Origin: an uncultured SAR116 cluster alpha proteobacterium
GTDB taxonomy: Bacteria; Pseudomonadota; Alphaproteobacteria; Puniceispirillales; Marisalimonadaceae
DNA length: 64,000 bases
Direction of reading: 5' to 3'
Assembly: GCA_902524215.1 (NCBI GenBank)
Contig: CABZCK010000004.1
Span: 1 to 64,000, forward strand
The position numbers and the translations under genes are program-made. The notes under the pieces were generated by a model. It made no database searches. It was not told the origin of the DNA and worked only from the letters and a program-made list of their open reading frames with translations. Below, in pieces: positions 23,641-34,466 of the stretch (positions are counted from its first letter, which is position 1; every line of letters starts with the position of its first letter).

Positions 23641-24368
23641 TAAAATTTCCACCCAGAATGAAGTGAAGCTATACCTTGTGATAAATTTTTATATTTGACT
23701 CTCTCAAATTTGGATTTAACAAACATTAATGACAGTTCATCTTGATCAGGAAACATTCTTATAGATTCAATTAAATATTTATATGCTTCTTCATTATTTG
23801 TTATAATTTTACCTAATTTTGGAATGATTTTGAATGACCATAAATCATATAATTTCTTTATAATATTATCATTAACCAAACTAAATTCTAAACAAATAAA
23901 CCTACCACCTGGTTTTAACACTCTATATATTTCATTAAGCGCTAATTGTCTGTTAGTTATATTTCTTAATCCAAAAGCTATTGTTATTCTATCATAAGTA
24001 TCATTTTTTATAGGAAGTTTTTCACAATTTCCAACAATATATCGTATTTTAGGATTATTTGATTTTCCATTAATTAACATGTTGTAATTAATATCTATAA
24101 TGTCTGCTGAAAAACCGCCAGATTTCATAAAAAGTTTTGCAATATCTCCAGTACCGCCTGCAATGTCTAGTAAAGACTGATTTGATTGTGGCGCAATCCA
24201 ATTTATTAATTCTTGTTTCCATAACCTATGAAAACCTAAACTTGATAAATCATTCATTAAATCGTATTTGGAAGATACAGAGTTGAAAATATTATTTACT
24301 AATTCTTCTTTCTTATTTATGTTGACTTTTTTAAAACCAAAATCAATTTTTTTTAAACTTTTTCTCAT
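23640..24368 (-). CDS. ubiE: Ubiquinone/menaquinone biosynthesis C-methyltransferase UbiE
   Basis: UbiE performs the SAM-dependent C-methylation of the quinone ring. The protein shows FNSVSSKYDLMNDLSSLG at the N-terminus, the SAM-binding DIAGGTGDIA, and the family blocks IAFGLRNITNRQLALNEIYRVLKPGG (here in part) and YKYLIESIRMFPDQ. The track begins at 24428, but the family N-terminus and an ATG place the start at 24368 (MRKSLKKIDFG). From there only 19 bases separate it from the divergent mutM start, so its promoter must overlap mutM coding sequence. It heads the ubiE-ubiB-coaBC-dut operon. Confidence 0.95.
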   Translation of the reverse strand: MRKSLKKIDFGFKKVNINKKEELVNNIFNSVSSKYDLMNDLSSLGFHRLWKQELINWIAPQSNQSLLDIAGGTGDIAKLFMKSGGFSADIIDINYNMLINGKSNNPKIRYIVGNCEKLPIKNDTYDRITIAFGLRNITNRQLALNEIYRVLKPGGRFICLEFSLVNDNIIKKLYDLWSFKIIPKLGKIITNNEEAYKYLIESIRMFPDQDELSLMFVKSKFERVKYKNLSQGIASLHSGWKF

Positions 24369-32547: not shown

Positions 32548-33777
32548 TTAACTTAGATTGTCAGTTCTTAGTAAAATATCTGAAATTAATAATGATGAGA
32601 ATGCACTTAATGTCCATCCTAAATGTCCGTGTCCAGTATTGTAAAAAATTCCAGGTAATTTACCTCTTCCAATTTTAGGCATCATACTAGGGGTCATGGG
32701 TCTTAATCCTGCCCAAGGTCTATAATGTTCTGTTGACACTTTTGGGAAAAGTTTGTTACTCCATTTGATTAATGGAAGTATCCTGTCTTCTCTTATGTCC
32801 TTATTATAACCATTAAATTCGGCAGTGCCAGCTATTCTAAACCTATTCGTACCAAGCCTACTTGAAACAATTTTAGCTCCATCATCTAAAAGTGAAACTT
32901 CTGGTGCACTACTTTGGCTAATTTTATCATTTAGATCAATTGTTATGGAATATCCTTTAACAGGATATATATTTACGTTATCTCCTAATTTAGAAGCTAT
33001 ATGTTTACTTGATACACCAGCACAAATAACTGTTGAATCAAAAGTATCAATATTTTTAGTATTTTGAGTACTAAATTTTAATTCAATTATATTATGTTTA
33101 TGAACAATATCATTAATTGAGGTGTTATAATTAAATTTTACATTGTTTTTTTTACAAATTTCAGCTAATTGGGTACAAAAAAGGTGTATATCGCCAGACA
33201 TATCACTTTTTGTAAAAAAGCCACCAAAAAAATTCTCTAAATTAATTGTAGGCTCAATTTTTTGAATTTCTTTATTGTTAAGTGGCTCTCTTTTTAAACC
33301 AGCTTTTGTTAGCCATTTATTAACTCTTAATCCATGTTTAAAATTTTCTTTTGTATTGCAAAGATGTAAAATACCTTTTTCTTTAAAGTCAAAATTAATG
33401 TTTTCTTCTTTTAATATCTCTTTCAATATATTTCCACTCTCGATTGCCATTTTTACAGTAGTAATTGTATTTTTTTCATGATTTTTCACATTTGATAAAA
33501 AACTTAAAAACCATCCTAGTTTATGTAAGGAAGGTTTTAGATTAATTGAGAGGGGAGCATCTTTTTTAAAAATCCACTGCATTCCTTGGTAAATAGTTTT
33601 CCAATTTGTCCAAACTTCACCATTACATGCTGATAGTTGTCCGCCATTAGCATAACTTGTTTCCATTCCTGCATACTTTTGTTTATCAAAAACAGTTACA
33701 TCGTAACCTTTTTTCATTAATTGATATGCTGTTGTTACGCCTGTTATGCCAGCGCCGATAATTGCTATTTTTTTCAT
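32548..33777 (-). CDS. dadA: DadA-type FAD-dependent D-amino-acid/glycine oxidoreductase
   Basis: This is a DAO-family flavoenzyme most like the D-amino-acid dehydrogenase small subunit DadA. It has the FAD-binding GAGITGVTTAYQL at the N-terminus, NGGQLSACN typical of DadA, and the C-terminal WAGLRPMTPSMMPKIG and NTGHGHLGWTLS blocks. I use ATG 33777, with GGAG 5 bases upstream, rather than the track's 33798. Its leader is a tandem glycine riboswitch, which suggests the real substrate or product pathway involves glycine (oxidation to glyoxylate and ammonia, for instance). The substrate is not provable from sequence; D-alanine remains possible. Confidence 0.9.
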   Translation of the reverse strand: MKKIAIIGAGITGVTTAYQLMKKGYDVTVFDKQKYAGMETSYANGGQLSACNGEVWTNWKTIYQGMQWIFKKDAPLSINLKPSLHKLGWFLSFLSNVKNHEKNTITTVKMAIESGNILKEILKEENINFDFKEKGILHLCNTKENFKHGLRVNKWLTKAGLKREPLNNKEIQKIEPTINLENFFGGFFTKSDMSGDIHLFCTQLAEICKKNNVKFNYNTSINDIVHKHNIIELKFSTQNTKNIDTFDSTVICAGVSSKHIASKLGDNVNIYPVKGYSITIDLNDKISQSSAPEVSLLDDGAKIVSSRLGTNRFRIAGTAEFNGYNKDIREDRILPLIKWSNKLFPKVSTEHYRPWAGLRPMTPSMMPKIGRGKLPGIFYNTGHGHLGWTLSAFSSLLISDILLRTDNLS

Positions 33778-33785
33778 AAAAACTC

Positions 33786-33972
33786 CATGACAAATCAAGC
33801 CCTAATCTGTCATGTGTACCTGAGAGATTAACTTATTATATAAGCTTACTCCTTCGGTGGACATAAAAATATGCCTCTCTCCAGATTGTCAACTCTTTAC
33901 GATACTTTTACCTGAGAGTTTCTAGGGTAGTTGCTCCTTCGGCGGTTATTTAAAACGCTCTCACGCAAAGAG
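33786..33972 (-). promoter_or_regulatory. Tandem glycine riboswitch controlling dadA
   Basis: Two glycine aptamers lie in the dadA leader on the minus strand. Aptamer 1 spans 33972-33893, with a P1 stem CTCTTTGCG/CGTAAAGAG and the conserved CGCCGAAGGAGCAA and ACTCTCAGGTA. Aptamer 2 spans 33887-33804, with P1 AATCTG/CAGATT and conserved CACCGAAGGAGTAAGC and TCTCTCAGGTA. A 5-base linker joins them, the usual tandem arrangement. Downstream, CATGACA (33814-33808) can pair with TGTCATG (33792-33786), a hairpin that shares two bases with P1 of aptamer 2 and reaches the GGAG ribosome-binding site. This suggests an on-switch acting at translation. Confidence 0.93.
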
Positions 33973-33985
33973 GAAATGACAGTTT

Positions 33986-34014
33986 ATAATAATTCCAACT
34001 ACAAAAATAATCAA
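33986..34014 (-). promoter_or_regulatory. Predicted promoter of the riboswitch-dadA transcript
   Basis: On the minus strand TTGATT (34014-34009) and TATTAT (33991-33986) are 17 bases apart, just upstream of the first aptamer. Transcription would begin close to the first P1 stem, as expected for a riboswitch leader. The rhodanese gene ends immediately before it, so some readthrough from that gene is also possible. Confidence 0.5.
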
Positions 34015-34015
34015 A

Positions 34016-34417
34016 CTAATTTTTTTTCTTAGTAATTTTTTCTATTGGGCCGTTTTGGTTTATCCAGTCATCAATGCCATTTTCTAAGTTCAAAACATTA
34101 GTTAAACCCATCTCCAAAGCTGTTTTAGTAGACAATGACGATCGCCATCCAGAAGCACAATAAAATATAAATTTATTTTTAGTATTGAAGTAATCTTTAT
34201 AATAAGGACTTTTAGGGTCAATCCAGAACTCTAACATACCCCTTGGTACGTGCTTAGCATTTTTTATTTTACCACTTTTCTCTAGTTCTCTAATGTCTCT
34301 TAAATCTATAAAAATTGTTTTATCATCATTATGCAATTTTAGAGCATTTATAAAGTCAATATTTTTGATTTTTTGTTTAGCTTCTTCAACTAAAGAAAAA
34401 CAAGATTTAATTGCCAT
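34016..34417 (-). CDS. Single-domain rhodanese-like protein
   Basis: This is a rhodanese-fold sulfurtransferase of about 133 residues. The active-site cysteine loop is CASGWRS (FYCASGWRSSLST), preceded by the rhodanese FIDLRDIRELEKSG segment and followed by NLENGIDDWINQNGP. CxxGxRS-type loops like this are usual for thiosulfate/persulfide-handling single-domain rhodaneses. I chose ATG 34417 over the TTG at 34432 because a GGA lies 10 bases before it. It is on the same strand as dadA, but the riboswitch leader and its promoter lie between. Physiological role unknown. Confidence 0.85.
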   Translation of the reverse strand: MAIKSCFSLVEEAKQKIKNIDFINALKLHNDDKTIFIDLRDIRELEKSGKIKNAKHVPRGMLEFWIDPKSPYYKDYFNTKNKFIFYCASGWRSSLSTKTALEMGLTNVLNLENGIDDWINQNGPIEKITKKKN

Positions 34418-34466
34418 TTTTTTAGTTTCCAATAGATTAAAATATATAATCTAATATAAATAAATA

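Follow-up and report, generated by a model that had tools for sequence, protein, structure and literature searches.

In their main texts, published surveys describe glycine cleavage (gcv) genes, transporters, serine genes and, in SAR11, malate synthase as the targets of glycine riboswitches (PMC3766115, PMC2211319, PMC2704228). Two of these systems are closest to the locus described here, which lies in a stretch of 64,000 nucleotides from the genome of an uncultured SAR116-cluster alphaproteobacterium (hereafter the window). The first is the tandem glycine riboswitch of gcvT operons, as found in SAR116 relatives, Caulobacter and Bacillus. Like these switches, the window element has two aptamers, a P0 pairing and a target with a putative role in glycine disposal, and within the same bacterial order a tandem switch is also found in front of gcvT. 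Unlike them, it precedes a single flavoenzyme gene, in a family that has no glycine cleavage operon. The second is the riboswitch of glcB (malate synthase) in SAR11, which as described in the main texts of the relevant reports also belongs to a marine alphaproteobacterium and is linked to glyoxylate (PMC2211319, PMC2704228, PMC5069720). According to the same texts, SAR11 retains gcvT with a riboswitch of its own and controls the step that consumes glyoxylate, whereas the window switch would control a probable glyoxylate-forming step. In addition, and unlike the glcB case, the pairing of riboswitch and gene reported here reaches into the beta- and gammaproteobacteria.

A tandem glycine riboswitch in front of a flavoenzyme gene

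An Rfam cmscan search of the whole 64-kb window returned two matches to RF00504 (Glycine), both on the minus strand and both above the gathering score of 32: 33975-33890 with 57.2 bits (E 3.5e-09) and 33887-33804 with 51.7 bits (E 1e-07). No other RNA family was found in the window. When the whole genome was searched, the two aptamers scored 57.2 and 58.4 bits, and there were no further glycine aptamers in this 55%-complete assembly. With two independent high scores and no other match in 64 kb, a chance match is ruled out. The P1 stem is present in both aptamers. The window element is therefore a genuine tandem glycine riboswitch with a putative glycine response, and its RNA is an ordinary representative of a known riboswitch class. 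This agrees with the original prediction, which had placed two P1-containing aptamers between a promoter-like pair and the start of a 'dadA' gene; the former was located on the 5' side and the latter on the 3' side, both on the minus strand. The predicted span did run from the promoter to the start codon, but the codon itself (33777-33775, minus strand) begins one base beyond it, and the strand had been left unstated. The features of the locus, in order of transcription, are as follows.

34016-34432, minus strand: gene for a rhodanese-domain protein (PF00581), small, directly 5' of the riboswitch and on the same strand
33986-34014, minus strand: promoter-like pair, -35 TTGATT (34014-34009), 17 nt, -10 TATTAT (33991-33986), a consensus match only
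33977-33981, minus strand: P0 leader strand UGUCA, pairing with the linker UGACA at 33891-33887
33890-33975, minus strand: glycine aptamer 1 (5' aptamer), RF00504, 57.2 bits
33804-33887, minus strand: glycine aptamer 2 (3' aptamer), RF00504, 51.7 bits (33894-33797 with 58.4 bits when the whole genome was searched)
33786-33814, minus strand: expression-platform hairpin CAUGACAGAUUA-GGGCU-UGAUUUGUCAUG, 12 bp, -13.4 kcal/mol, z -4.9
33783-33786, minus strand: Shine-Dalgarno sequence GGAG, 5 nt before the ATG, kept in nearly all SAR116 leaders
32548-33777, minus strand: gene for a PRK12409-type FAD oxidoreductase of 409 aa (NF009074; DAO fold PF01266), of the type annotated as 'D-amino acid dehydrogenase'

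Across 42 SAR116 leaders, the P0 pairing between leader and linker, which is typical of tandems, was found paired in 91% of cells. In other SAR116 members it becomes (U)AUCA/UGAUA, and 11 of the 42 leaders show this two-sided change from G-C to A-U. TTGATT followed 16 or 17 nt on by a similar -10 hexamer was present in most congeners of the window genome, and among the relatives' leaders covered by a consensus scan, the promoter-like pair recurs clearly only in this genus. The rhodanese gene adjoins the riboswitch in the window's genus and its nearest relatives and is displaced or separated elsewhere in the family; it probably does not belong to the riboswitch device. Outside SAR116, aptamer 1 scored 59-77 bits and aptamer 2 at most 46. 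A stronger aptamer 1 has been described for gcv-type, not transporter-type, switches (PMC6944388).

The PRK12409 protein and its relatives

The window protein scored 599.8 bits against the NCBIfam model NF009074/PRK12409 (cut-off 494) and 328 bits against the model for canonical DadA, NF001933 (cut-off 383). The gene labelled 'DadA-type' in the original prediction encodes a DAO-fold protein that belongs to NF009074/PRK12409 and not to canonical DadA. Its relatives at 92-94% identity were found in SAR116-cluster genomes. Maximum-likelihood analysis of 76 proteins placed the 57 PRK12409 members, 55 with a riboswitch and 2 without, in one group with 100/100 support, and a very long branch separated this group from the other 19 proteins, which are DadA-type and comprise E. 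coli DadA.

These results bear on the reading that the enzyme is what its NCBIfam family name says, a true D-amino acid dehydrogenase acting on D-alanine or D-serine, and that glycine serves as a proxy, signalling for example a surplus of amino acids or wall stress caused by misincorporated glycine. Canonical DadA (NF001933, E. coli dadA), at about 31% identity, does have the DAO fold, some flavin-region residues and the substrate-arginine motif GLRP in common with PRK12409. Against this reading, however, stand not only the missed DadA cut-off and the very long branch between the clades, but also invariant swaps beside the substrate site. His385 (in GHGHLG) was present in 92 of 92 PRK12409 sequences, while all 19 DadA-type proteins have Thr at this position; likewise, Asn52 and Val55 are invariant in PRK12409, where DadA-type proteins have Y or H and P, respectively. 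Furthermore, no homologue of dadX (alanine racemase) was found in any PRK12409 locus examined (flanks of about 3 kb or less), as compared to a substantial dadX match in 8 of the 19 DadA-type loci, and among the matches listed a glycine riboswitch almost never occurs at DadA-type genes. PRK12409 thus differs from DadA in its clade, its substrate-site residues, its lack of a dadX partner and its riboswitch control. We consider a D-amino acid substrate unlikely, and the missed DadA cut-off and the lack of dadX in the PRK12409 loci also disfavour the earlier proposal that glycine signals the cell to use D-alanine.

An AlphaFold model of the window protein (pLDDT 84.7) had glycine oxidases as its nearest solved structures (4ysh, 7cyx and 1ryi), followed by sarcosine and dimethylglycine enzymes. 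Identity to the glycine oxidases is weak, at about 18%, and since the DAO fold also houses sarcosine, proline and D-amino-acid enzymes, likeness of structure alone would not assign the substrate. That the ThiO-type glycine oxidases (B. subtilis 1ryi, G. kaustophilus 4ysh) are the best structural matches could point to a glycine oxidase of the thiamine pathway (ThiO-like) or to a subunit of a cyanide synthase (HcnC-like). In an alignment to B. subtilis ThiO, Arg359 of the GLRP motif was found opposite Arg302, the substrate-binding residue of ThiO. This equivalent is kept in PRK12409, but His385 replaces Arg329, the Tyr246 region differs, and the window protein scored 123.2 bits against the ThiO model TIGR02352, far below its cut-off of 250.8. 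In addition, neighbour clustering (with clusters partly annotated) revealed no recurrent thi or hcnAB-like partner, and one would expect a TPP riboswitch, rather than a glycine riboswitch, to control a thiamine enzyme. A ThiO-like or HcnC-like role is hence very improbable.

Riboswitch pairing and the loss of glycine cleavage

How widely the riboswitch and PRK12409 occur together was assessed in several sets of genomes. In 200 Pseudomonadota genomes, 12 genes score above the NF009074 cut-off, and each of them is directly preceded by RF00504 on its own strand. By contrast, only one of over 100 lower-scoring DAO paralogues among the matches listed has a glycine riboswitch (G236:C74, 318 bits). 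This gene (L128, G236:C74:22545-23780) belongs to a separate DAO clade below the NF009074 cut-off and has a tandem riboswitch at 23877-24081 directly upstream. The survey of relatives that had been suggested with the original prediction showed the pairing at 24 of 24 PRK12409 genes in SAR116 relatives, and the pairing is wider than had been stated: a riboswitch was also found at 34 of 36 PRK12409 genes in other alpha-, beta- and gammaproteobacterial loci, and at four of the five new members that were obtained from another 385 Alphaproteobacteria. The arrangement is present in the cultured Comamonas testosteroni ATCC 11996 (L059). Pairing with the riboswitch characterises the PRK12409 clade in three classes of proteobacteria.

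In three members, no riboswitch adjoins the gene (L067, L070 and L148, the last a borderline case). At L067 and L070, a gene for an M20-type amidohydrolase abuts PRK12409 upstream and the riboswitch is missing. L148 (G413:C4:29083-30234) lies at the family cut-off, contains an in-frame stop, has no riboswitch and comes from a 1.6-Mb genome; perhaps it is a decaying copy. The M20-type amidohydrolase (TIGR01891) is found near PRK12409 in Comamonadaceae and relatives (L058, L061, L064, L067, L070, L073, L078, L080 and L082), directly upstream in several of these loci. Its substrate might be an N-acylglycine, from which it would set glycine free, although the TIGR01891 model is generic.

No general conserved operon partner hinting at the substrate was seen across the PRK12409 loci, and neighbour clustering revealed that the genes next to PRK12409 differ from lineage to lineage. 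Beyond SAR116, inherited gene order is ruled out as the sole cause of the pairing, since the flanking genes vary. This variation between lineages indicates either that selection has maintained the pairing or that riboswitch and gene were transferred together.

Next to the pairing, the distribution of the glycine cleavage system argues for glycine as the substrate. Of the 41 SAR116 genomes, 10 contain gcvT above the cut-off, and these same 10 contain GDC-P. Neither gene was found in the window's family, which is represented by 25 genomes, eight of them 88-100% complete. PRK12409 is present in 24 SAR116 genomes and meets gcvT only in one of them (G027), in which the riboswitch precedes PRK12409 and none precedes gcvT. 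Conversely, in five SAR116 genomes without PRK12409 the loci showed a riboswitch before gcvT, and four more agree by their coordinates. Because the SAR116 genomes are related, this complementarity between gcvT and PRK12409 represents few independent events. Four nearly complete genomes of SAR116 family f2 (G028, G031, G037 and G040) have no glycine cleavage genes, no PRK12409 and no glycine riboswitch. About half of the PRK12409 genomes outside SAR116 also keep gcvT, and this coexistence means that PRK12409 is no universal replacement. Malate synthase was found in nearly every SAR116 genome, and in all of those with at least 88% completeness, so glyoxylate could be used. The wide riboswitch pairing, together with the absence of glycine cleavage in the lineage, suggests that the enzyme probably burns glycine itself, and glycine is accordingly its most likely substrate. 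The oxidation of overflow glycine to glyoxylate, as originally proposed, is thus the best-supported reading, with a substrate deduced from the clade-specific pairing and the missing SAR116 glycine cleavage system. The earlier interpretation as a whole is partly supported, its glycine-oxidation half being favoured and its D-alanine-signal half disfavoured.

Switching direction and proposed function

The expression-platform hairpin includes the 3' strand of aptamer-2 P1 in its 5' arm, and the 3' arm extends into the GGAG. In the 42 SAR116 leaders, its 7-bp core was paired in 96.9% of cells, as compared to 20-61% for slid controls, and 12 two-sided changes between G-C and A-U were counted at one pair of the core; the extended 12-bp version was paired in 93.8% of cells. 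The leaders thus contain a conserved, covarying hairpin that competes with P1. In the window's genus, this hairpin reaches no further than the first G of GGAG, while in most SAR116 members beyond this genus a longer helix buries the whole GGAG. The common UGUCA hairpin arm is absent from three leaders (L016, L024 and L030). In L024 and L030, an alternative pairing of GGUUCCAU with AUGGAGCC is possible that covers the whole Shine-Dalgarno sequence. Since the covarying hairpin joins the Shine-Dalgarno region to the 3' strand of aptamer-2 P1, the leader sequences suggest control at the level of translation.

The direction of the switch was also approached by folding the leaders with P1 imposed. 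This left the Shine-Dalgarno sequence more open in 22 of the 42 leaders, but the trend was mostly reversed in the window's genus, where the Shine-Dalgarno sequence of the window itself became less open. With such mixed outcomes, thermodynamics does not settle the ON direction. This relates to the alternative that the enzyme makes glycine from sarcosine, dimethylglycine or iminodiacetate and is repressed by its product via an OFF switch. Enzymes for these three compounds have the same fold, and besides the direction being left open by folding, the Shine-Dalgarno sequence of several leaders can be hidden once P1 has formed. However, in most SAR116 leaders it is the competing hairpin itself that hides the Shine-Dalgarno sequence, which is what an ON switch expects, as is the ability of L024 and L030 to rebuild a fully burying hairpin. 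Moreover, where glycine cleavage was lost, the expected partner is a sink for glycine and not a source. We therefore regard a glycine-producing enzyme under an OFF switch as quite unlikely, and the switch is probably a glycine-ON switch.

Taken together, we think it rather probable that the tandem glycine riboswitch controls a lone PRK12409 gene and that the product is an FAD glycine dehydrogenase, an overflow outlet that replaces the lost glycine cleavage system. At low glycine, the Shine-Dalgarno region would be paired with the 3' strand of aptamer-2 P1 and the bases adjoining it, which would keep translation low. Once glycine is bound, P1 would form, the competing hairpin would dissolve and the enzyme would be made. 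The enzyme would then convert glycine to glyoxylate and ammonium in an FAD-dependent manner, with the electrons passing to the respiratory chain and the glyoxylate to malate synthase, and it would serve as the outlet for excess glycine in a lineage that has lost glycine cleavage. Both the ligand response and the electron acceptor in this scheme are presumed.

PRK12409 is not mentioned as a target in the main texts of two broad surveys of glycine riboswitches (PMC3766115, PMC2211319), and in the main texts of the open-access literature no report was found that connects a glycine riboswitch with dadA, a D-amino acid dehydrogenase or SAR116. As judged from open-access main texts, the conserved PRK12409 target of a glycine riboswitch therefore appears, provisionally, to be new. 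On a broader scale, we lean slightly towards the view that the PRK12409 proteins form a hitherto overlooked family of FAD-dependent respiratory glycine dehydrogenases with its own riboswitch across alpha-, beta- and gammaproteobacteria, which replaces glycine cleavage in SAR116, an abundant marine cluster, one riboswitch being placed at gcvT or here depending on the lineage. The ligand of a riboswitch is direct evidence on the metabolism of the gene downstream, and for this reason the annotation of PRK12409 comes into question. Our findings suggest that the propagated label 'D-amino acid dehydrogenase' is wrong or incomplete for the whole PRK12409 family. They also predict a route from glycine to glyoxylate in ocean bacteria without a glycine cleavage system, which would shift the expected sources of one-carbon units, nitrogen and glyoxylate in such bacteria.
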